A DNA stretch of 64,000 bases from Paludisphaera borealis (lineage in GTDB: Bacteria; Planctomycetota; Planctomycetia; Isosphaerales; Isosphaeraceae), in assembly GCF_001956985.1 (NCBI RefSeq), contig NZ_CP019082.1:4960001-5024000 (forward strand). Reading direction: 5' to 3'. The position numbers were made by a program, and so were the translations under genes. A model generated the notes under the pieces. It was not told the origin of the DNA. It made no database searches and saw nothing but the letters and a program-made list of their open reading frames with translations. Shown here in pieces: positions 5,426-28,446 of this stretch. Each line of letters begins with the position of its first letter. Position 1 is the first letter of the stretch.

Positions 5426-5739
5426 AATTGGGTTCGTTCGCGCCGCAAACCACTACGCCCGAGCCCCCGAAACGCCTCGCCGCCTCCGTCCGACCCGCAT
5501 GTTTTCAGGCCGTCGAGCCGACCTCCGACCCGGCCGAAATTGGGTTCGTTCGCGCCGCCGCAATGGTGGGTCGGCGCGGTGTAAAGCACTGTATCCAAGC
5601 GGTTTGCGTTTCGTTTCTGGTTTGGGTTCGTTCGCGCCGAAAGGCCCTTGTTCCGACGCCTGCAACGGTCCTTTCCGCACCCGGCTCGGCCTGCCCTCCT
5701 CGTTCGACGGTCTCTCCGAGAAATTGGGTTCGTCCGTCC
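5426..5739 (+). repeat. Cluster of a short repeat, core AATTGGGTTCGTTCGCGCCG
   Basis: Four same-strand copies lie in the gene-free stretch 5415-5990: 5426-5445 (exact), 5538-5557 (exact), 5622-5639 (18 bases, first two lost) and 5722-5739 (diverged after 11 bases). Spacing is about 84-112 bases and the sequence between copies is not conserved. Reading frames crossing the copies on the minus strand repeat the peptide ANEPNF, which is a by-product rather than a protein. The pattern suggests a dispersed intergenic repeat of this lineage. No gene is supported in this interval. Confidence 0.75.
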
Positions 5740-5990
5740 ATTTTTTGGGTTCCATCCGGACCGACCCGCCTTGTGTCGAGCGGCTGATTCTCACCGATTC
5801 CGGGTTGCCAACGAGCATGCGGGCGCAATATCCCACTTGTAATTTACGACACGATGACGCCGAACCGAGTCGAACAATCGGCCGAGTCCGTCGTTCTTTC
5901 TTGGGGCCGAAACCACTGGCGTTACAATCGGTGCATCCCGAATGGGACCTCGTCCTCTGGAGCCTCAAGAGTCCATCGGAGGGATCAAAT

Positions 5991-6431
5991 ATGGATTGGA
6001 AATACACCGAACCCAACTACTCCATGGCGACGGTCGATTCGGGCGATTCGGTCGATCAAGCCATGGCTGAATTCTGTCAACACATTAAGACGCAAGTCAC
6101 GCCGAAGAATGACTCGGTCGCCTGGGATTATCTGCGTGTCGAGATGTGGTCCGATTCGGGGCGGATGATCGTGTATCCTGCATCAACCTTAAATCCGCTT
6201 CGAATCGAGAAAGCAGCATGCCAAGTCTTTTTCAGCGACCTTCTCTCGGCGTACGAACTTATCGCCGATTCTGGCCTAAATGACGAAGCTTTCGTCGCCG
6301 AAATAATTCGCGAAGAAGGAGAGTGGATCGATCGGTTTCTTGACGCCGCCCGAAGGGTAGGGCTTTTCGGCAAGCCTATTCAATTCTGGGATGGCGATGG
6401 TGACGAGCCGATCCGCGTTGAGCAGATCTGA
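5991..6431 (+). CDS. Hypothetical acidic protein, 146 aa
   Basis: The product starts MDWKYTEPNYSMATVDSGDS and is acidic, with a predicted mixed alpha/beta fold and no signal peptide or membrane segment. The start is set by GGAGGG about 8 bases before the ATG; the longer open frame upstream runs through the repeat cluster and is not coding. Codon use is clearly less GC-biased than in neighbouring genes (many third-position A and T), which fits recent acquisition. I do not recognise the family. Small acidic proteins of this kind include immunity proteins, but nothing here proves that role. Confidence 0.65.
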   Translation: MDWKYTEPNYSMATVDSGDSVDQAMAEFCQHIKTQVTPKNDSVAWDYLRVEMWSDSGRMIVYPASTLNPLRIEKAACQVFFSDLLSAYELIADSGLNDEAFVAEIIREEGEWIDRFLDAARRVGLFGKPIQFWDGDGDEPIRVEQI

Positions 6432-6701
6432 CCGAGTGGCTCCTGCCGGTGTGCGGTTCCTCCTAATCGATAAGGCGGAGGCCACGGCACAGGTGGAAGC
6501 GCTCGAGCCGCTGCGCCCCTCCGGCATGGCTAGGCCTGACCGTCCCGCCCCTGGGCCGTGTATCCGGGGTGTGCGGGGGCAGGAAGCTTGAGCGACAGGT
6601 TCCGGCGCGATGAACTGGGTTGGCGCGCCGGATTCGTTGCCTCAAGCTATATTGAAAGACGTGCATGCAAAACCGTCGCCGACCAGGACAAGGAGCAGGC
6701 C

Positions 6702-7472
6702 ATGCCGTCACCTTTTCCGGGAATGAATCCGTGGATCGAGCAGGAGGGGATCTGGGTCGATTTCCATGCCGCGTTCATCCCTGCGATCCGGCGACAACTC
6801 GCTCAGCAGGTTTTGCCGAAATACATCGTCCTGATGGAGGAGCAGGTTTCCATCCATGAGGTGCCGGCTTCTCGTGTTCGGAGCATGCGCCCCGACCTGG
6901 CGATCACGCGACCCGAACGCGGGCGAGAGCCTCGCGCCGCGGTGGGCGTCGCGGAGATCGAGGCGCCGTATCATCCGAGTCTGCCGGAAGAAGAGGTTGA
7001 GAGGCAACCTTACCTGGAGATCCGCGATCGCGAGAATCGGGAACTGGTGACCGTTATCGAATTGCTCAGTCCATCGAACAAGCGACCCGGCGAGGATCGG
7101 TGGAAGGATCTCGAAAAGCGTCGCGCGGTTCGCAGAGGGACCGCTCACCTGGTCGAGATCGACCTACTGCGGGGCTACCCTCCGATGCCGCTCGAAGATC
7201 GTCCCGAGTGCGATTACTCCGTCCTCGTCAGCCGCGCCGAACGGCGTCCGGTCGTCGACTTCTGGCCGATCGACGTCCGTGATCGCCTGCCAGTCGTCCC
7301 GATCCCGTTGCGATCGCCCGACGGCGACGCCCAGGTCGATCTCCAGGCGGCCCTCGACCAGGTTTACGACGACGCCGGTTACGTTCATTTCATCTATCAG
7401 GGGAATCCCAACCCCGCCCTCGCGCCGGAAGACGCGGAATGGGCCGAGTCGTTCCTGCCCGAGGTGTCCTGA
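6702..7472 (+). CDS. DUF4058 family protein
   Basis: The 256-residue protein begins MPSPFPGMNPWIEQEGIW and contains VTVIELLSPSNKRPGEDR, both hallmarks of DUF4058, a family common in planctomycetes and cyanobacteria with unknown function. The charged strand and helix pattern with E and K near LSPSNK has been compared to nuclease-like folds, but no activity is established. The start is chosen because AAGGAG lies 6 bases upstream and the conserved MPSPFPGMNP should be N-terminal. It is probably cytoplasmic. The upstream gap 6432-6701 shows no gene. Confidence 0.85.
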   Translation: MPSPFPGMNPWIEQEGIWVDFHAAFIPAIRRQLAQQVLPKYIVLMEEQVSIHEVPASRVRSMRPDLAITRPERGREPRAAVGVAEIEAPYHPSLPEEEVERQPYLEIRDRENRELVTVIELLSPSNKRPGEDRWKDLEKRRAVRRGTAHLVEIDLLRGYPPMPLEDRPECDYSVLVSRAERRPVVDFWPIDVRDRLPVVPIPLRSPDGDAQVDLQAALDQVYDDAGYVHFIYQGNPNPALAPEDAEWAESFLPEVS

Positions 7473-18533: not shown

Positions 18534-20204
18534 TTATGCGCCACGCTGTCGCCTCAGCTTGTATTTCAGGCCGGTGACGAAGAAGCAGGCGCCGGCGACG
18601 ACCCCGAAGATGATCGGGGCGTAGCGAGGATACCAGGCCATGGGGAAGACGGCCAGGAAGACGGCGGCGGCCTGGAAGTAGTAGAAGCCCGAGAGGATGC
18701 CGGCCTTGGTCATGAACAGCATGCCGTTGGTCACGGCGATCATCGGCGAGAGCGAGAGGACCGGCAGGCCGAGGAGCCATTCGACGAGGAAGACCAGGTT
18801 GATCGCGACGATTCCCGAGCCCCAGATATGGGCGAGCTGGCGCTCGACGAAGCTGATCGGCCCTCCCTTCCTGCGGAGGCTCCAGAAGAACGCGGCCCAC
18901 GCGCCCAGGCCCACGGTGAACAGCAACACGTAGGGTAGGCGATCCGTCACGCCGGCCAGGTGCAGGGCGTTGGTCACGCCGAAGAAGAAGAGCAGGGCGA
19001 CGCTGTGGTAGATCCAGAGTTGGCCCCAGTTCTCGAGGACGGCCGCGTGGTGGCTCTCGCCCAGGAGGCGGCTCGCCAGGGCGCGGAGGCTCATCGAACG
19101 GGCGCTCACGGGCTCGTCGCGGAGGAACGCTTCGAGGTCGTCGGCGAGGGCCCCGGCGGTCGGGTAGCGCAGCTCGGGCTGCTTCTGGAGGCATCGCAGC
19201 GCGATCATCTCCAGGTCCGGGCTCACGCCGGGGTTCAGCACGCGCGGCGGGACCGGGTCGTGTTCGAGGACCAACAGGATGGTCTCGATCGGGCTGGCGG
19301 CCTGGAACGGCGGCCGCCCCGTCAGCATCTGGTAGAGGATCGCCCCCAGGCTGTACACGTCGCACGCCGGCCCGAGCGGCGTCCGCCGCGCGTCGCGAGC
19401 TTGCTCCGGAGGCATGTAGCCCGGCGTCCCCAGGATCGCGCCGGTGGGCGTGAGCGAAAGATCGCCGTCGAGATCGAGCCGCTTGGCCAGGCCGAAATCG
19501 CTGACGTAGGGGTGGCCGCCGCGATCGAGGAGGATGTTCGACGGCTTCAGATCTCGATGGAGGACGCCTTGCTCGTGCGCGTATTGGATCGCCCGGCAGA
19601 TGGGAACCAAGAGCCGGGCCGCCTCGGACTCGGGCATCGGGCCTTCCGCCAGCCGGCTCGCCAGGGTCGTCCCCTCGACGTACTGCATCGTGAAGTACGG
19701 CTGGCCCGCGTGGTCGCCCACCCGGAACACCGGCACGATGTGCGGATGTGCGAGGTGCGACGCGGCCGTCGCCTCGGCGCGGAACCGCTCGACGTCGCGC
19801 GGCGACGAGCCCAGCCCGCGCAGCAGCCGCTTCAGCGCCACGATCCGATCTCGACCCGGCTCGCGGGCGCGAAACACGACCCCCATGCCCCCCTGGCCCA
19901 GCTCGTCGAGCAGCAGGTACTCCCCGAAGCGGCCCAACTCATCATGGTCGTCGACTTCCTCAATTCGTGGTTCGGGTCGGTCGGCGAAGGCGAGCGTCTC
20001 GGCGACCCAGATCGTCGCCCAGAGCGACCGCAGCTCGTCGGCGATGCGCGGGTGACTCTGGGCGAGGGTCTCGACGTCCGGCTCCTCGCCCTGTCGCGCG
20101 GCGGCGCAGAGTGAATCGATCAGCCCGACCAGGAGCGCAGCGTCGGCGTCGTCGATGGGCGGCGGCTCGATCGCGGAAGACCGGGGGCGTTCGGGCTGGG
20201 TCAT
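18534..20204 (-). CDS. Membrane Ser/Thr protein kinase (PknB-like) with six-helix C-terminus
   Basis: A Hanks-type kinase domain spans about 93-365: glycine loop GQGGMG (103-108), catalytic lysine K125 in VALKR, HRDLKPSN (217-224), DFG (236-238) and GTPGYMPPEQA. Residues 1-90 form an alpha-helical leader seen in many planctomycete kinases. After residue 395 come about six transmembrane helices (398-416, 424-441, 463-481, 487-500, 505-522, 528-546) and no external sensor domain. It starts 22 bases after the sigma factor gene on the same strand, a pairing typical of planctomycete ECF/kinase signalling. Confidence 0.87.
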   Translation of the reverse strand: MTQPERPRSSAIEPPPIDDADAALLVGLIDSLCAAARQGEEPDVETLAQSHPRIADELRSLWATIWVAETLAFADRPEPRIEEVDDHDELGRFGEYLLLDELGQGGMGVVFRAREPGRDRIVALKRLLRGLGSSPRDVERFRAEATAASHLAHPHIVPVFRVGDHAGQPYFTMQYVEGTTLASRLAEGPMPESEAARLLVPICRAIQYAHEQGVLHRDLKPSNILLDRGGHPYVSDFGLAKRLDLDGDLSLTPTGAILGTPGYMPPEQARDARRTPLGPACDVYSLGAILYQMLTGRPPFQAASPIETILLVLEHDPVPPRVLNPGVSPDLEMIALRCLQKQPELRYPTAGALADDLEAFLRDEPVSARSMSLRALASRLLGESHHAAVLENWGQLWIYHSVALLFFFGVTNALHLAGVTDRLPYVLLFTVGLGAWAAFFWSLRRKGGPISFVERQLAHIWGSGIVAINLVFLVEWLLGLPVLSLSPMIAVTNGMLFMTKAGILSGFYYFQAAAVFLAVFPMAWYPRYAPIIFGVVAGACFFVTGLKYKLRRQRGA

Positions 20205-20226
20205 GGAGGAGTTCTCGCCGGGGCGG

Positions 20227-20850
20227 TCAGCAGAGGGAAGGGGCTTCGCCGAGGATTCCGCGAAGCCGCCGGAGGGCCCGGAGGTGCCGCATGCCCGTCG
20301 CGGCCTCGCTCAACCCCAGCACCTGCGCGGCCTCGCCGTTGGCGAGCTGCTCGAAGTGGCGGAGGAGGATGATCTCGCGATCCGCGTCGTCGAGGAGGTC
20401 GATCGCCTCGCGGAACCGCTTCCTCAGCTCGTCGCGCAGGGCCTCGGCCGCCGGGGTGAGCGCGGGGTCTCTCAGGTCAGCGGCCAGTTCGAAGGACGAG
20501 CGGTCGGCAAACGCCACGGCGGGCCGCTCGCGGTCGAGGCTGCGCTTATCCGCGCCCCGGTGGCGGCGATGGGCGTCGATCACATGATCGCGCGCGATTT
20601 GACGGAGCCAGAGATGGAACGGCATGCGGGGGTCGCGGAGGTAGTCGCCCAGCCGCTGGCTGGCTCGCAAGAGCACGTCCTGCACGACGTCGCTGGCGTC
20701 GACCCGCCGGCCGAGCGTGCGGTCGAGGCGGGCGTCGATCATCCGCCGGAGGGCAGGGCGGTGACGCTCCCACAGCTCGTCGACCGCGCAGGGGTCGGCC
20801 CGCTCGACCTGCTCCAGGAGCCGCTGCGTCTCGATCGCGTCCGGCCACAT
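20227..20850 (-). CDS. ECF sigma factor paired with a Ser/Thr kinase
   Basis: The 207-residue sigma-70-like protein has region 2 (DASDVVQDVLLRASQRLGDY, FHLWLRQIARDHVIDAHR) and region 4 (LLDDADREIILLRHFEQLAN, then GEAAQVLGLSEAATGMRHLRAL). It is the first gene of a minus-strand unit and directly precedes the kinase gene. In other planctomycetes such factors are controlled by phosphorylation from the partner kinase rather than by an anti-sigma; that is inference here. Confidence 0.85.
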   Translation of the reverse strand: MWPDAIETQRLLEQVERADPCAVDELWERHRPALRRMIDARLDRTLGRRVDASDVVQDVLLRASQRLGDYLRDPRMPFHLWLRQIARDHVIDAHRRHRGADKRSLDRERPAVAFADRSSFELAADLRDPALTPAAEALRDELRKRFREAIDLLDDADREIILLRHFEQLANGEAAQVLGLSEAATGMRHLRALRRLRGILGEAPSLC

Positions 20851-21525: not shown

Positions 21526-22020
21526 ATGGAGAAACTTTATGTTCTTTACGACGCTGACTGCGGCCTTTGCAGTTGGGCCCGGCGCTGGATCATCCAGCAG
21601 CCGGCGTTTCTGCCGCTCCGTTTCATCCCGGCCGGGTCGGACACGGCCGCGCGGCTGTTCCCGGGCCTCAGCCGGCCGGACGAGCCCAAGCAAGAGCTGG
21701 TGGTCGTCGGCGACGACGGCGCGGTTTATCGTAATGAGAACGCCTGGATCATGTGCCTGTACGCGCTGGAGGAGTATCGCGAATGGGCCGTGCGCCTGGC
21801 GCATCCGCTGCTCCGGCCGCTCGCCCGGGAAGGGTTCGCGCTCCTCTCGCGGCAGCGGCCGCGGATCTCGCGGTGGTTGAGCCTCGCCAGCGAGGTCGAG
21901 ATCGCCGACACGCTCGGCCACGTCCACGCGCCGTCGTGCGCCCGGACGCCGTCCGACGTCTTTGATTCCACCGCCGGCTCGTCTCCGCGCGGGTTCGTCG
22001 AAATCGACGCGAGCCCCTGA
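21526..22020 (+). CDS. DCC family thiol-disulfide oxidoreductase-like protein (DUF393)
   Basis: The defining DxxCxxC motif is present at the N-terminus in LYVLYDADCGLCSWARRW (C13, C16). The core matches DUF393, with QELVVVGDDGAVYRNENAWI as the strand-helix pair and a conserved arginine-rich helix near SRQRPRISRWL. Proteins of this family have a thioredoxin-like fold and are named for predicted thiol-disulfide exchange; few have been tested. The length of 164 is slightly more than usual owing to a polar tail after residue 135. Confidence 0.8.
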   Translation: MEKLYVLYDADCGLCSWARRWIIQQPAFLPLRFIPAGSDTAARLFPGLSRPDEPKQELVVVGDDGAVYRNENAWIMCLYALEEYREWAVRLAHPLLRPLAREGFALLSRQRPRISRWLSLASEVEIADTLGHVHAPSCARTPSDVFDSTAGSSPRGFVEIDASP

Positions 22021-22039
22021 CGCGGTCGGGGGGGCGACG

Positions 22040-22082
22040 GTTACATTCTGTTACAGTTCTGCCTTCATCGCTTCTTTACAAT
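22040..22082 (+). promoter_or_regulatory. Candidate response-regulator box and promoter of the CotH/two-component operon
   Basis: Tandem repeats GTTACATTCT (22040-22049) and GTTACAGTTCT (22050-22060) give GTTAC-N5-GTTAC. This is like the CpxR box (GTAAA-N5-GTAAA) and the 11-base repeat pitch of PhoB boxes. A -10 hexamer TACAAT lies at 22077-22082; 17 bases upstream there is no -35 match, and the repeats cover that spot. This layout fits activation by an OmpR-family regulator, and one is encoded in the operon that follows. Confidence 0.5.
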
Positions 22083-22142
22083 CAGCGTGACGACCGAAAC
22101 CGTGGAACGACGTTGCGTCGCAATCCTTTCTCAGGTGCCGCC

Positions 22143-24341
22143 ATGCCGAGAACGACTCTGGGGATTTTTCTGTTGGTGATCGCGGGGGTGCTGATCGGCC
22201 TCGCCGCCATCGGCGTGATCGACGATCCGGGCGCCTTCGAGGCGTCTCCGGCGCTGGCACAAGGGCCGCCGCCGGGCCCCGGCGGGCCTCCCGGCTTCGG
22301 CGGTCCCGGCTTCGGCCCCGGCATGTTCCTGGCGCCGACGGTGGTCAAGGAGGCCGACGCCGACGAGGACGGCAAGCTCTCGCCCGAGGAAGCCGGCAAG
22401 GCCGCCGAGAAGTTCATTCGCGACGCCGACAAGGACAAGAAGGGCTCGATCGACGCCGACGCGCTCGGCCGCGCGGTGAATCGGCGGATGCCGCCGCCTC
22501 CTCCGGGCTTCGGTCCTGAAGAACCGTCCGACGAGTTCGGACCGGGGACGTTCATGGCGCCGGGGATCGTCGAGGCCGCCGACGCGAACAAGGACGGCCG
22601 ACTCTCGCCCGAGGAGGCCGCCAAGGCCGCTGAGAAATTCGTCCGCGACGCCGACGCGGACAAGAAAGGCGGGCTCGACGCCGACGCGCTGGCGAAGGCC
22701 ATGAGCCAGCGGATGGGCCCGCCGCCGGGCTTCGGCGGTCCGGGAGGTCCGGGAGGCAAGGAGAAGAAGCTCGTCAAGGCGTTCGACAAGGACGGCGACG
22801 GCCGCTTGAACCTGGCCGAGCGGGTGGCGGCCCGCGAGTCGTTGAAGAAGGACAAGGCCGCTGGCGGCGGCCGTCGCGGCTTCGGCCCTCCTCCGGGATT
22901 CGGCGGCGGTAAGGAAGAGCCCGTGAAGCCCGGTCCACGCATCGCGCCCGGCGACGTCGCGACGTACTCCGGCAAGCCGCTTTACGACCCGACCATCGTC
23001 CGCACCCTGTTCCTGGACTTCGACGACAAGGGGTGGGAGGGGGAGATGGCCGACTTCTATAAATCCGACGTCGAGATTCCGGCCACGCTCACCGTCGACG
23101 GCCGCAAGCTGCCGGGCGTGGGCGTCCACTTCCGCGGCATGTCGTCGTTCTTCACCGTCAAAGAAGGGCACAAACGGTCGTTGAACGTCTCGCTCGACTT
23201 CGTGAACCCGGACCAGAAGCTCGACGGCTACAAGACGCTCAACCTCCTCAACGCGCATGAGGATTCGAGTTTCCTGCATACGATTCTCTATTCCGAGATC
23301 GCCCGTAACTACCTACCGACGCCCAAGGCCAACTTCGTCCGGGTCGTTATCGACGGCGAGAGCTGGGGGCTGTACACCAACGTCCAGCAGTTCGACAAGC
23401 AATTCCTCGCCGAGAACTTCGGGACCGATAAGGGCGCGCGTTGGAAGGTTCCGGGCAACCCCGGCGCCGACGGCGGGCTTCGCTACCTTGGCGACGACCT
23501 CAAGGAGTATGAAAGCCGGTTCGAGCTGAAATCGCCCAGCGTCAAGGGGAAGGGTAAGGACGACTGGAAGGCCCTCATCGATCTGTGCCGGACTCTCAAT
23601 CAGACTCCGCCCGACAAGCTGGAAGCCGCTCTGGGTCCGATCCTCGACGTCGACGGCGTGCTCTGGTTTCTGGCCGTCGAGAACGTGCTCGTCAACGGCG
23701 ACGGCTACTGGACACGCGCCAGCGACTACAGCATTTACCGAGATCCCAAAGGCAAGTTCCACGTCGTGCCACACGACATGAACGAGACCTTCCAGCCCGC
23801 CATGATGTTCGGCCCTCCAGGAGGCCCCGGTGGGCGTGGCGGGCGGGGTGGACGCCCCGGCGGCGGTCCTGGTGGTCCTGGCTTCGGCCCCGGCGGTCCC
23901 GGCGGTGGTCCTGGCGGGCGTCCTGGCGGTCCTGGCGGCATGGGGGCCGCGGGGGTCGATCTTGATCCGCTGGTCGGGCTCGACAACGAGCGTACCCCGC
24001 TTCGAAGCAAGCTGCTGGCCGTGCCCGCGTTGAAGGCTCGTTATCTTAGCCATGTCAAGACGATCGCCGAGACCTGGCTCGACTGGAAGACGCTCGGGCC
24101 GATCGTCGAACGCTATCGGGCGCTGATCGAGAAGGAGATCGAGGCCGACACGCGCAAGCTGTCGTCCCTCGCCGCGTTCCAGAAATCGGTGGCCGAGGCC
24201 GACGAGCCTGCGCCCGCACCCGGAGCCGGCCCCGGTCGAGGACGTCGCGAACTGAGCCTGAAGGCGTTCGCCGACGGCCGCAGGCGCGCTCTGCTCGACA
24301 ACGCGGAGATCAAGAAAGCCAAGGCCGACGAGCCGAAGTGA
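22143..24341 (+). CDS. Exported CotH-like kinase protein with EF-hand repeats
   Basis: This 732-residue protein starts with a signal or anchor helix (about 5-25). Five EF-hand-like calcium motifs follow: DADEDGKLSPEE, DADKDKKGSIDAD, DANKDGRLSPEE, DADADKKGGLDAD and DKDGDGRLNLAE, separated by Pro/Gly-rich linkers. The CotH domain runs from about residue 285, with GVGVHFRGMSSF, KTLNLLNAHED and the probable metal/ATP site VVPHDMNETF. A glycine/proline-rich loop of about 45 residues (about 560-605) interrupts it. CotH of Bacillus phosphorylates spore coat proteins. It heads an operon with DUF4956 and a two-component system. Confidence 0.87.
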   Translation: MPRTTLGIFLLVIAGVLIGLAAIGVIDDPGAFEASPALAQGPPPGPGGPPGFGGPGFGPGMFLAPTVVKEADADEDGKLSPEEAGKAAEKFIRDADKDKKGSIDADALGRAVNRRMPPPPPGFGPEEPSDEFGPGTFMAPGIVEAADANKDGRLSPEEAAKAAEKFVRDADADKKGGLDADALAKAMSQRMGPPPGFGGPGGPGGKEKKLVKAFDKDGDGRLNLAERVAARESLKKDKAAGGGRRGFGPPPGFGGGKEEPVKPGPRIAPGDVATYSGKPLYDPTIVRTLFLDFDDKGWEGEMADFYKSDVEIPATLTVDGRKLPGVGVHFRGMSSFFTVKEGHKRSLNVSLDFVNPDQKLDGYKTLNLLNAHEDSSFLHTILYSEIARNYLPTPKANFVRVVIDGESWGLYTNVQQFDKQFLAENFGTDKGARWKVPGNPGADGGLRYLGDDLKEYESRFELKSPSVKGKGKDDWKALIDLCRTLNQTPPDKLEAALGPILDVDGVLWFLAVENVLVNGDGYWTRASDYSIYRDPKGKFHVVPHDMNETFQPAMMFGPPGGPGGRGGRGGRPGGGPGGPGFGPGGPGGGPGGRPGGPGGMGAAGVDLDPLVGLDNERTPLRSKLLAVPALKARYLSHVKTIAETWLDWKTLGPIVERYRALIEKEIEADTRKLSSLAAFQKSVAEADEPAPAPGAGPGRGRRELSLKAFADGRRRALLDNAEIKKAKADEPK

Positions 24342-24356
24342 ACGACAGAGACGACG

Positions 24357-24418
24357 TACGAGCCCGAAGCGCCAGCGAGTGAATCCCCATGTGAACCTCG
24401 TCGCGCGTCGGGCTCGTA
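24357..24418. repeat. Intergenic element with 11-base perfect inverted ends
   Basis: TACGAGCCCGA (24357-24367) and TCGGGCTCGTA (24408-24418) are perfect inverted repeats around a 40-base centre containing AGCGCCAGCGAGTGAATCC. From memory, the string ACGAGCCCGAAGCGC-AGCGAGTGAAT is a frequent intergenic repeat in planctomycete genomes. It sits between the CotH and DUF4956 genes and could act as an mRNA stem-loop that lowers downstream expression. Confidence 0.55.
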
Positions 24419-24456
24419 TTTCAACGGCGAACCGCACTGATACAAGGAGATTTTGA

Positions 24457-25131
24457 ATGCCGGAATGGCTCGGTGCGTCGTTGTCGAACGGTCAGGCGTC
24501 GGCTCCGTCGCTGCTGGCGTGGCGGATCGGGGCGGCGCTGGTGCTCGGCGTGGCGGTGTCGGGGATCTACCGCTGGGCGCGTCGGGGACAACTCGTCCAG
24601 ACGACGTTCCTGACGACGCTGGTGCTGTTGGCCGTGGCGATCGCGATGGCGACCCAGGTCATCGGCGACAACGTGGCGCGGGCGTTCAGCCTGGTCGGCG
24701 CCTTGTCGGTCGTCCGGTTTCGGACCGTGGTCAAGGATACGCAGGACACGGCGTTCGTGATCCTGGCGGTGGTCGTCGGCATGGCCGCGGGCGCCAACAA
24801 TCTCGCCGTGGCGCTCGTGGGCTTGGGGATCGTCGGCGTGGCGTCGTGCTTCCTCTGGCCGCATCGGCAGGGGGGCGACTGGCGCGCGACCGACTGCGTG
24901 CTCACGATTCGCGTCGCCCTGACGCCGGGGGCCCAGGCCGTGGCTGAGCAAGCCGTGGCGGCGGTCGTCTCGCGGTCGTCGCTGGTCTCGGCCGGAACGG
25001 CGCGGCAGGGCGTCTCGCTCGATTTGGTCTACCGCATCCGCCTCCGGCCCGGCCTGGCCCCGGCGCAGGTCGTGGCCGACTTGAATTCGCTGGAAGGAGT
25101 TGAGAGCGTGGAGCTGCGCCGCGCCGATTGA
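24457..25131 (+). CDS. DUF4956 membrane protein
   Basis: The 224-residue protein has three or four transmembrane helices in its first 145 residues and a cytoplasmic C-terminal domain with a ferredoxin-like strand and helix pattern. The diagnostic DUF4956 motif is GALSVVRFRTVVKDTQDTAF. An AAGGAG lies before the start. In other bacteria DUF4956 genes sit with CotH and VTC-domain polyphosphate polymerase genes; here CotH is present and no VTC gene is in the window. The stop lies 8 bases from the response-regulator start. Confidence 0.78.
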   Translation: MPEWLGASLSNGQASAPSLLAWRIGAALVLGVAVSGIYRWARRGQLVQTTFLTTLVLLAVAIAMATQVIGDNVARAFSLVGALSVVRFRTVVKDTQDTAFVILAVVVGMAAGANNLAVALVGLGIVGVASCFLWPHRQGGDWRATDCVLTIRVALTPGAQAVAEQAVAAVVSRSSLVSAGTARQGVSLDLVYRIRLRPGLAPAQVVADLNSLEGVESVELRRAD

Positions 25132-25138
25132 GGACGAG

Positions 25139-25882
25139 ATGATGACGCACGAAACGACTCCCGCCGCCGAGAAAGAGCCCCTCGCCCAGGGGGTCTCGAT
25201 CTTGCTCATCGACGACGACGTCGAGCTTTGCGAGCTGCTCCGCGAGTTCTTCGCCGGCCAGGGCGTGCGTCTGGAATCGGCGGACGACGGCCGCCGCGGC
25301 CTGAGCCTGGCGCTGGAGGGCCGGCACGACCTGGTCTTGCTCGACGGGATGCTGCCGGGCCTGGACGGCTTCGAGGTGCTTCGGCTGGTGCGGCGGCAGA
25401 GCCAGGTTCCGGTCATCATGCTGTCGGCCCGCACCGCCAAGGCCGACCGGCTCGCGGGACTCGGCGCGGGGGCCGACGACTACGTGCCGAAGCCGTTCGA
25501 CCCCGACGAACTGCTCGCCCGCGCGCGGGCCGTGCTCCGGCGCTCGGGCCGGCCGGCGCAGGCCGTCGATCGGTTGGAAGTGGACGGCATCCGGCTCATC
25601 CCCTCGGCCCGCGAGGTCTGGCGAGAAGGCGAGATCGTGCCGGTGACGACGATCGAGTACGACATCCTCGAATTCCTCATTCGCTCCGCCGGCCGGATCA
25701 TCACCCGCGACGAGCTGACCGCCGCGCTCTACCGCCGCCGCAGCTCGCCGTTCGACCGCGCCATCGACGTCCACGTCAGCCGGCTCCGCAAGAAGCTGGG
25801 CGCGTACGGAACGCGCATCCTCACGGTTCGGGGAACCGGCTACCTGTTCCGCGCCGGTCCGTCGGGCGAGGCCGAGCGATGA
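25139..25882 (+). CDS. OmpR/CpxR-type response regulator
   Basis: The receiver domain covers about 18-128 with acidic pocket IDDD, phospho-acceptor aspartate in LVLLDGMLPG (D69) and the lysine in VPKPFDPDEL. The winged-helix Trans_reg_C domain (about 145-240) ends SRLRKKLGAYGTRILTVRGTGYLF. Either of two adjacent ATG codons (25139 or 25142) may be used; GAGG lies just upstream. Its stop overlaps the kinase start by 4 bases. It is likely to bind the direct repeats at 22040-22060 that precede this operon (inference). Confidence 0.92.
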   Translation: MMTHETTPAAEKEPLAQGVSILLIDDDVELCELLREFFAGQGVRLESADDGRRGLSLALEGRHDLVLLDGMLPGLDGFEVLRLVRRQSQVPVIMLSARTAKADRLAGLGAGADDYVPKPFDPDELLARARAVLRRSGRPAQAVDRLEVDGIRLIPSAREVWREGEIVPVTTIEYDILEFLIRSAGRIITRDELTAALYRRRSSPFDRAIDVHVSRLRKKLGAYGTRILTVRGTGYLFRAGPSGEAER

Positions 25883-27198
25883 GGTCGATCTACGCCAAAC
25901 TCGTGCTCTGGGCCGTCGGCGTGTCGGTCCTCTCGCTGGTCGGATTCATCGCCACGTTCTCGTATCTGGAGGAGCCACATCCGGGGCGTCGCGGGTTCAT
26001 CAACGGGCTGATGAGCCTCCAGCTTGAAGGGGCGAGAAGGGCTCTCGCCGACGGCGGCCCTGATCGGCTCGCGGCGTACCTGAGGACGCTCAACGAGGAC
26101 TTCCGGGTCGAACACCATCTGGTCGACCGCAACGGGGTCGATCTGGTCGACGGCCGCGACCGCTCGGACGATCTGGCCCGAGCATCGAACCCCCCTCATC
26201 CCCCCGCGCCTCGCGCCAACGGCGGCCAGGCGACCAAGCTGGCGATTGACGACGGCCCCCGCCTGCTCGTCCTCATTCCTCGGCCGCCGCGGTGGACGAC
26301 GACGCTGCCGTACTACCTCTGGATCATCGTGCCGGTGCTGGGACTCCTCTACGCCCTGGCGGTCCACCTGGCGCGTCCGTTGTTGAGCTTGCGGCGGGCG
26401 GTCGACCGCTTCGGCCGGGGCGAGCTGTCGACCCGGATCGGCTCGCAGCGCCGCGACGAGATCGGCGAGCTGGCCCGCGCGTTCGACCTGATGGCGCAGC
26501 GGATCGAGTCGCTGATGGCCGCCGAGCGGCGGCTGATCCAGGACGTCTCGCACGAGCTGCGGTCGCCGTTGACCCGGCTCGGCCTGGCCGTCCGCCTGGG
26601 CCGCGACGGCGGCGACTGCCAGAAAGCCATGGATCGGATCAAGCGCGAGACCGACCGGCTCTCCAGCCTCGTCGACGAGTTGCTCCGGCTCAACTCCGCC
26701 GAGGAAGACGCGGCGTCGCGCGGCCGCGACGAGGTCCCGCTGCACGACCTGCTGCGGTCGCTGGTCGACGACTGCGCCGTCGAGGCAGACGCCAAGAGGT
26801 GCCGCCTGGAACTCCGCATCGCCGCTCCCGCCACGATCCTGGGCGACCTCGAATTGGTCCGACGGGCCGTCGAGAACGTGCTCCGCAACGCCGTCCGCCA
26901 CTCGCCCGCCGACATGCCCGTCGAGATCGACCTTCGCTCCGACGGCTCGACCGCGACGATCACGATCCGCGACCACGGCCCCGGCGTCCCCGACGACGCC
27001 CTGACCGCCGTTTTCAAGCCGTTCTTCCGGATCGAGGGGGACCGCAGCCGATCGAGCGGCGGCGTCGGCCTGGGCCTGGCCATCGCCGAACGCGCCGTGC
27101 GCCTCCACGACGGCACCATCGCCGCTGCCAACGCCCACCCGGGGCTCCAAGTCAATATTCGACTGCCCGTCGTCACAGACCGTGATTCATCTCCGTAA
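25879..27198 (+). CDS. CpxA/EnvZ-like sensor histidine kinase
   Basis: The 439-residue kinase has TM1 (about 8-28), an external domain of about 115 residues with a proline-rich stretch, TM2 (about 145-165), a HAMP domain (ARPLLSLRRAVDRFGRGELS), the phospho-acceptor H225 in QDVSHELRSPLTRL, the N box NVLRNAVRHSP, and the G boxes DHGPGVPD and GGVGLGLAIAERAV. The start ATG overlaps the regulator's TGA. The external domain is short, as in envelope-stress sensors; the ligand is unknown. Confidence 0.9.
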   Translation: MRSIYAKLVLWAVGVSVLSLVGFIATFSYLEEPHPGRRGFINGLMSLQLEGARRALADGGPDRLAAYLRTLNEDFRVEHHLVDRNGVDLVDGRDRSDDLARASNPPHPPAPRANGGQATKLAIDDGPRLLVLIPRPPRWTTTLPYYLWIIVPVLGLLYALAVHLARPLLSLRRAVDRFGRGELSTRIGSQRRDEIGELARAFDLMAQRIESLMAAERRLIQDVSHELRSPLTRLGLAVRLGRDGGDCQKAMDRIKRETDRLSSLVDELLRLNSAEEDAASRGRDEVPLHDLLRSLVDDCAVEADAKRCRLELRIAAPATILGDLELVRRAVENVLRNAVRHSPADMPVEIDLRSDGSTATITIRDHGPGVPDDALTAVFKPFFRIEGDRSRSSGGVGLGLAIAERAVRLHDGTIAAANAHPGLQVNIRLPVVTDRDSSP

Positions 27199-27263
27199 GA
27201 ATTCGTCCGAGCCTGGCCTCCTTGCGTGCCTGCAACTGGTCTTGCGGGATTCATGGAGGTTTG

Positions 27264-27371
27264 ATGAAAATGAAATCGTTAGGAGTTGAGGGGTCCGCGC
27301 TTCCTCGCGTGATCATCACGCGATCCGGTCGCCCCCTTCAACCTGACTCCTTGCGCTCATCCTCTCCGTAG
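27264..27371 (+). CDS. Possible 35-aa leader ORF before a DUF1559 gene
   Basis: An ATG at 27264 follows a strong Shine-Dalgarno (GGAGG, 4-base spacer) and opens a 35-codon frame beginning MKMKSLGVEGSALPRV. It ends 49 bases before the DUF1559 start. A 17-base palindrome, CGCGTGAT-C-ATCACGCG (27306-27322), lies inside it. It could be a leader peptide or a chance ORF; composition alone cannot decide. Confidence 0.25.
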   Translation: MKMKSLGVEGSALPRVIITRSGRPLQPDSLRSSSP

Positions 27372-27420
27372 TTGCTTGTTTCTCTTCTTCGTTGATCCGA
27401 GATTTTCACAGGGAGGCGTC

Positions 27421-28446
27421 ATGGCACGTCGTCGTGCTTCCGTGCGCGCAGCGTTCACGTTGATCGAGCTTTTGGTTGTGATCGCGATCATCGCGGTTTT
27501 GATCGCGCTCTTGCTGCCGGCGGTGCAGTCGGCCCGCGAGGCGGCCCGCCGCATCCAGTGCACCAACAACCTCAAGCAACTCGGCCTGGCGATGTCGACT
27601 TATCACGACGCTCTGGGCACGTTCCCTCCGGGCGCTCGCTACGTCGGCTGGGGAACCTGGTATCACTATTCGCTACCGTTCTTGGAGCAGGGCTCGGTTT
27701 TCAACGCGTTCAACTTCATGGGGTCGAACATCACCACGCCGCAGCTCGGCTATCTTGATGTGGCGAACTCGACGGCCACGACGATCCGGCTCGCCGCGTT
27801 CCAGTGCCCGAGCGACCAGGCGACGGCGCCGATCGGCGGCGTCACCGCGGGAAACTACGCGGCCAACTACGGCAACACCGGAACCGGCCTGTTCCAGATC
27901 ACGGCGTCGAGCCCCTACTGTTGCACGTCTTACAACGGCGTGGTCTTCGGCGGCGCCCCGTTCGCGTGGATCGCCGTCGGCACGGCCCCGGTGCAGTCGT
28001 TCGCGGGGACCTACGGCGTTGCGAGCATCACCGACGGCACGAGCAACACGATGCTTCTTGCCGAAGTGATCCAGGGCCAGAGCAACGGCAGTCAGTTCGA
28101 CCTGCGCGGCTTCATCCAGTACGGCTCGTCGAGCGGCTTCGCCACCTACCTCGCGCCGAATTCCAAGCAGCCCGACCTGCTCAACGACGCGACGTATTGC
28201 GCCTACCCGTACAGCAACAACCCGCCGTGCAAGTTCCGCACCGCCTCGCCGCCGGCCTACCCCGGCGACACCACGCCGGGCATTAACGGCGACACGTACG
28301 CCGCGCGCAGCCGCCACCCGGGGGGCGTGAACTCCGTCTACGCCGACGGCAGCGTCCACTACATCAAGGATTCGATCTCGCTGCCGACCTGGCGTGCCCT
28401 GAGCACGACGCACGGTGGCGAGGTCATCAGCGCCGACGCCATGTGA
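27421..28446 (+). CDS. DUF1559 protein with type IV pilin-like N-terminus
   Basis: The 341-residue protein has the prepilin motif AFTLIELLVVIAIIAVLIAL after a short basic leader, with processing expected before F. The DUF1559 signature QSAREAARRIQCTNNLKQLGLA follows, and the C-terminal H-X9-DG motif is SRHPGGVNSVYADGSVHYI. Start set by GGGAGG 5 bases upstream. These pseudopilin-like proteins occur in dozens to hundreds of copies per planctomycete genome and are exported, but their function is unknown. A small lipoprotein gene follows 68 bases later. Confidence 0.9.
   Translation: MARRRASVRAAFTLIELLVVIAIIAVLIALLLPAVQSAREAARRIQCTNNLKQLGLAMSTYHDALGTFPPGARYVGWGTWYHYSLPFLEQGSVFNAFNFMGSNITTPQLGYLDVANSTATTIRLAAFQCPSDQATAPIGGVTAGNYAANYGNTGTGLFQITASSPYCCTSYNGVVFGGAPFAWIAVGTAPVQSFAGTYGVASITDGTSNTMLLAEVIQGQSNGSQFDLRGFIQYGSSSGFATYLAPNSKQPDLLNDATYCAYPYSNNPPCKFRTASPPAYPGDTTPGINGDTYAARSRHPGGVNSVYADGSVHYIKDSISLPTWRALSTTHGGEVISADAM

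Follow-up and report, generated by a model that had tools for sequence, protein, structure and literature searches.

A direct-repeat box at a fixed 22 nucleotides from the -10 as the proposed operator of an OmpR/CpxR-type regulator encoded in its own CotH-DUF4956 operon in Paludisphaera borealis and related Isosphaeraceae

Promoters of the Salmonella regulator PhoP are classified by the position of their boxes. In the available portions of the study describing them, a direct box that overlaps the -35, some 12 nt upstream of the -10, is predicted to be class II (architecture I); architecture III boxes lie 21-23 nt before the -10 (21 nt at ompX, 23 nt at rstA), the alpha-CTD is needed at rstA, and a reversed PhoP box is inactive at 23 nt (PMC3335776). 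OmpR is assigned a 20-bp box of two 10-bp half-sites, and the excerpted source includes TTTACGATTTGTTACAAAAA and GTTACAACTTGTTACATAAG, apparently as predicted OmpR sites (PMC9861516). The CpxR box is given as GTAAA-N5-GTAAA with a spacer of N(4-8), which is the reverse complement of TTTAC-N5-TTTAC (PMC12802237). For MtrA, one binding fragment from M. tuberculosis (Rv2524c) reads by eye as GTTAT-N6-GTTAT, the other two binding fragments in the source excerpt being less alike (PMC10609481). No paper was found on MtrA with GTTAC in Streptomyces, nor, in the open literature, on such an operator or such regulation in planctomycetes, Isosphaeraceae included. In streptococci and clostridia, CotH and DUF4956 genes occur together with a polyphosphate polymerase in the neighbourhood of pel genes, according to the accessible text of one study (PMC7112168).

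The locus considered here lies in a 64-kb stretch of Paludisphaera borealis DNA, called the window below, and consists of the following features.

22040..22054, plus strand: direct repeat GTTAC-N5-GTTAC, the box that the response regulator (RR) is proposed to bind (sequence and conservation).
22055..22076, plus strand: spacer, conserved at 22 nt and lacking a -35 hexamer (sequence, cross-genome comparison and promoter scan).
22077..22082, plus strand: proposed -10 hexamer TACAAT (YAYAAT in orthologous operons).
22143..24341, plus strand: first operon gene, EF-hand/CotH kinase-family protein (Pfam; start picked by comparison with relatives).
24357..24418, plus strand: 11-bp perfect inverted repeat in the CotH-DUF4956 gap (arms 24357-24367 and 24408-24418, found by eye).
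24457..25131, plus strand: DUF4956 protein (Pfam).
25139..25882, plus strand: OmpR-type RR, proposed to bind the box (Pfam, NCBIfam, RR search and structure match by sequence).
25882..27198, plus strand: HAMP-HisKA-HATPase sensor kinase (HK) (best NCBIfam models CpxA, below cut-off).

Read directly from the sequence, the box at 22040-22054 is GTTACATTCTGTTAC, with GTTACATTCT at 22040-22049 and GTTACAGTTCT at 22050-22060, and exactly 22 bases separate the second GTTAC from TACAAT. The hexamer 17 bases 5' of the -10, CAGTTC (22054-22059), matches TTGACA by eye at one position of six, and a sigma-70 consensus scan of 21950-27500 returned no promoter-like site with a -35. The preliminary description of this DNA, in which GTTAC-N5-GTTAC was placed beside a TACAAT lacking a -35, is therefore correct on these points. 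It had also set the operon start about 60 bases downstream, and the CotH ATG at 22143 is indeed 61 bases past the -10; the DCC1-like gene upstream of the box ends at 22020. The RR combines a receiver with a C-terminal winged helix (Response_reg 94.6 bits, Trans_reg_C 73.2 bits, both above the Pfam cut-offs). Regulators of this type are expected to use operators of tandem direct repeats with a 10- or 11-bp period, and a repeat of this kind is conserved at the operon itself and before a second gene, described below. Because the gap between CotH and DUF4956 measures 115 bp and holds the inverted repeat, read-through to the RR and HK genes is not certain. TTTC follows this repeat on the 3' side, and a search of the window with the left part of the repeat, allowing up to three mismatches, gives one occurrence. 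The repeat may be an attenuator or processing site, or else a dispersed palindrome.

When this arrangement is set against the described systems, the class II layout that had been claimed as an exact match is doubtful: the class II PhoP boxes in the available text overlap the -35 at about 12 nt from the -10, whereas the box here stands 22 nt away in all seven operons compared below (PMC3335776). What is shared with PhoB and class II promoters is an OmpR/PhoB-family regulator and direct repeats. The 22-nt gap matches architecture III instead, where the rstA and ompX promoters likewise carry, in the same excerpt, a single direct-repeat box with a 5-nt spacer 21-23 nt from the -10; the PhoP half-site, (T/G)GTTTA, and the regulator itself are different (PMC3335776). 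With the two apparent OmpR sites cited above the locus shares half-sites, their order and the 10-base period, but here one box stands alone, at 22 nt from the -10 (PMC9861516, excerpt). The reverse complement of TTTAC-N5-GTTAC, GTAAC-N5-GTAAA, is near the CpxR box, so that the box here would be reversed relative to CpxR sites if these, as printed in the accessible part of the source, lie on the gene strand (PMC12802237). Since a reversed PhoP box is reported as inactive at 23 nt, analogy would favour reading GTTAC as a direct, OmpR/PhoP-like box over a reversed CpxR box (PMC3335776, in part). The label CpxR/PhoB-like is better replaced by OmpR/CpxR-like, given the nearness to OmpR sites and to a reversed CpxR box.

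The proteins give a similar picture. Among the 25 best-scoring of 91 and of 81 NCBIfam equivalog models, the RR missed the cut-offs of MtrA (179.1 of 300 bits), PhoB (176.5 of 296.2), CpxR (170.3 of 341), OmpR (170.1 of 331) and further PhoB models (168.1 of 270 and 126.3 of 471), and the HK those of CpxA (215.6 of 486) and of the Legionella-type CpxA (245.8 of 800), although CpxA models were its best. As every cut-off among the models listed was missed, the circuit is described as OmpR/CpxR-type and filed as neither. The recognition stretch of the RR, SPFDRAIDVHVSRLRKKL, presumably resembles that of E. coli CpxR, and the gene content is, we assume, unlike that of cpxRA/cpxP. MtrA provides the best-scoring model for the RR and also the best solved chain by sequence (2gwr); its fragment differs from the box here in having a spacer of six rather than five and GTTAT rather than GTTAC, as far as the excerpted source goes (PMC10609481).

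Conservation was followed first at CotH relatives. A CotH protein search of 59 genomes (P. borealis, G000, and relatives) gave matches in 26, and 19 stretches around CotH relatives were compared, separate from a further G000 site (L132). The order CotH-DUF4956-RR-HK was found in six of these 19 (G001-G005 and G007), which with the window makes seven genomes, and in all seven the box lies 22 nt before YAYAAT. Orthologous operons lacking the repeat in front of them had been named beforehand as evidence against autoactivation; the repeat is kept in 7/7 genomes, with TTAAC as the first half-site in G003, so that the reading is not refuted on this point. Upstream regions of the seven operons, aligned together with those of G026 and G033, are gap-free from box to -10 and divergent in the flanks. 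Across 45 Isosphaeraceae genomes, TTAC-N6-TTAC-N22-YAYAAT matched seven times in seven genomes, each time before CotH, and the reversed control gave none. G026 is among these seven; its box is present and its RR-HK pair is not visible because the contig of this incomplete genome ends inside CotH. At CotH loci without a neighbouring RR-HK pair (eight scanned of 13 fetched), a box of at least 9/10 was found in none of the eight; two carry an 8/10 box, and one of these two (L121) has a 4/6 hexamer at gap 23.

From these comparisons it appears quite probable that the box is the cognate operator of the RR encoded by the third gene, activating CotH-DUF4956-RR-HK as a positive autoregulatory loop. 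As far as sequence comparison can tell, autoregulation is well supported, and we infer activation at this promoter. The adjacent kinase would phosphorylate the RR, and two RR monomers may then occupy the two GTTAC half-sites head to tail, as is usual to expect from the family. Judged by the spacing, the dimer site would be centred near -42, flush against the -35 position, from where the bound RR could recruit RNA polymerase to the promoter, in which a -10 but no -35 is present. CotH-DUF4956-RR-HK would thereby be switched on, from a start predicted near 22089, as what is presumed to be one transcript. It is unlikely that the operon's RR binds the box to repress, or to act both ways (negative or homeostatic autoregulation). 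A protein bound at about -49 to -35 could hinder polymerase, and conservation alone is equally compatible with repression, but the absent -35 hexamer is as expected of an activator-dependent promoter, and the fixed 22-nt spacing in several lineages together with the match to PhoP-activated promoters, as described in the accessible text, favours activation (PMC3335776).

Autoregulation by the operon's own RR gains further support from the relatives of this regulator outside CotH operons. An RR search of the 45 family genomes at E 1e-55 gave 29 matches in 24 genomes, 22 of them besides the seven CotH operons; 19 stretches, holding 20 of these 22, were fetched, and 19 of the matches were scanned upstream over up to 9 kb each. 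A sense-strand box (at least 8/10) followed at N22 by a -10 (at least 4/6) was found upstream of the RR at six of the 19 loci (G033, G029, G012, G032, G031 and G014). With 8/10 for the box and 5/6 for the -10, there were five matches at gap 22 against two for the 55 other gaps from 5 to 60 taken together; the gap of 22 had been fixed beforehand from the CotH operons, and some of the sense sites had already been spotted by eye before the gap test. Sixty sets of order-1 Markov shuffles gave no match at these thresholds. Relaxing the -10 to 4/6 gave six at gap 22 against 25 over the other gaps (mean 0.45), and a 9/10 box with a 4/6 -10 gave three against three. On the opposite strand of these stretches (L184-L202) there were three matches at gap 22 against 11 at the 55 other gaps in the looser setting, more than the average for those gaps, and one against two in the stricter; the three antisense matches are possibly chance or other promoters. 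The N22 box was not found at 13 of the 19 scanned loci, four of which have less than 3 kb of upstream sequence and nine more. The positives include the sister pairs G029/G012 and G031/G014, and thus represent about four independent lineages outside the genus.

The operons behind these boxes are of varied content. G033 has an RR 76% identical to that of P. borealis, with the same FDRAIDVHVSRLRKK stretch, and GTTAC-N5-GTTAC-N22-TATCAT before a different operon, in which translations indicate a small gene followed by ArnT-like, glycosyltransferase-like and acyltransferase-like genes. ArnT-like and glycosyltransferase-like genes, likewise read from translations, precede the RR in G032; with other genes between, the distance from box to RR is 6.5 kb in G033 and 3.8 kb in G032. 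The operon of G029 is dioxygenase-RR-HK, and in G012, G031 and G014 the RR-HK pair adjoins the box, 81-237 bases away. The claim that an OmpR/PhoB-type direct repeat is tied to the operon's own regulator is supported by the 7/7 operons and by the variants before other RR-HK operons. Further sites were noted in this material: TTTACATTCGTTAAG-N22-TTAGT(G/T) in G028/G059 and TTGACAAATCTATAC-N23-TACTAT in G035, both left out of the counts, and, on the minus strand of G033 (L184, 5610), TTTACGAATCTTAAC-N22-AATACT, some 2 kb ahead of a second regulator gene (53% identical).

Binding of the box by a different OmpR-type regulator of the cell, the operon's RR acting elsewhere, is a less likely reading still than repression. 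The RR search listed, at a first look, 96 candidates from the P. borealis genome, and OmpR-type boxes resemble one another; only a single protein of this genome, however, matches this RR at E 1e-55 or better. Moreover, variants of the box accompany RR-HK pairs at varied operons and no good box is present at the eight scanned CotH loci without such a pair. The box thus goes with the regulator, as would be expected under autoregulation. A co-variation of half-sites with the recognition helix is suggested by the sequences. P. borealis, G001-G005 and G033, the last of which is placed beside the genus in the tree (99/97), have FDRAIDVHVSRLRKK in common and KTTAC-type half-sites, save for TTAAC in G003. 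In G029 and G012, FDRALDVH..SHLRKK goes with second half-sites of TTCAT/TTCAG; FDRSIDVHISHIRKK goes with TTAAT/TTAAC in G031 and G014, and FDRVIDMHVCNLRKK with TTGAC and TTTAC in G032. The helix of G007 is divergent (FDRSIDVHVSSIRKK) and its box is still TTTAC-N5-TTTAC, which argues against a simple helix-to-box code.

The repeat by itself is close to what chance would give. With one mismatch allowed, 0.53 copies are expected in the 64-kb window, and at least one copy occurred in 42 of 100 shuffles. Exact GTTAC-N5-GTTAC is found twice in the whole P. borealis genome (7,651,896 bases in three contigs) and once in the reversed control; the box-N22-(-10) pattern at up to two mismatches matched five times against 11 in the reversed control, the site at 22040 being alone among the five with fewer than two mismatches. 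The looser KTTAC-N5-KTTAC gave 29 matches in the six genus genomes against 26 in the reversed control, so that the bare repeat is not enriched. With counts this near to chance, the evidence beyond chance is the conservation of the repeat with its spacing and -10 at the CotH operon. A chance or neutral repeat, kept because the region is conserved, would fit the lack of significance in the window and the near equality with the reversed control in the genus, but has next to no probability given that box, spacing and -10 stay constant across species whose flanks differ, and that all seven matches to the full pattern lie at the CotH operon.

The 29 genus matches comprise five at CotH, six at a dioxygenase gene and 18 that were set aside. 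The dioxygenase locus of P. borealis is as follows.

G000:C1:6637000-6650000 (L203), about 5612-7083: dioxygenase-domain gene, then an EF-hand gene, with the box upstream.

KTTAC-N5-KTTAC stands before this gene in 6/6 genus genomes, once in each, 119-167 bases from the matched start. The P. borealis protein has a Dioxygenase_C domain, and those of the other genus members were matched to it. Next to it comes an EF-hand gene in four of the six (G000, G001, G004 and G005); tblastn detected none in the dioxygenase loci of G002 and G003. The box lies 23 bases before TAGAAT in P. borealis; in the other five genomes TACCCT lies 44-45 bases past the box, and four of these five also have a -35-like element of the TTCA type 21 bases beyond the box, a class I-like arrangement. 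At 24 other dioxygenase loci (30 scanned of 54 matches) a 10/10 box was found in none; three have a 9/10 box, in G033 at 277, in G013 at 533 and in G035 at 1416 bases, each without a -10 at gap 21-24. On this sequence pattern, the dioxygenase gene, elsewhere in the genome, is probably also under the same regulator in the genus.

Taken more widely, it is possible, though we hold this only tentatively, that Isosphaeraceae carry a cassette in which the fixed-22-nt box and the RR-HK pair move together. The genes between them would be exchanged (CotH-DUF4956, dioxygenase, ArnT-like plus glycosyltransferase-like, or none), and the half-sites would drift with the recognition helix. The Paludisphaera cassette would then govern a surface regulon of small size in which EF-hand proteins are prominent (the CotH protein and, in four of six species, the product of the gene after the dioxygenase), perhaps in response to calcium or to envelope stress. 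This type of circuit is familiar, and the planctomycetes that host it are a little-studied group. If the autoregulation reading is right, it provides a specific, testable operator-regulator pair with a predicted second target in the genus, and box variants that occur in nature next to recognition helices which differ. The CotH/DUF4956 and dioxygenase genes, so far uncharacterised, would also be tied to a single signal.

Some of the remaining repeat matches and one neighbouring gene pair are of interest in their own right. The match at G000:C1:2760008 (GTTACAAATCGTTAC) was considered as a further target and dropped, as it has no apparent counterpart among the genus matches. Seven of the 18 set-aside matches read (G/T)TTACAGCGGTTTAC, in appearance a dispersed repeat that has nothing to do with the promoter. 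Its copies are L158, L162, L165 and L169 in G002, L150 in G004, and L164 and L171 in G005; those of G002 have identical downstream sequence as far as printed. In the window itself, on the minus strand at 18534-20850, an ECF-type sigma factor gene adjoins a Ser/Thr protein kinase gene (Pfam).
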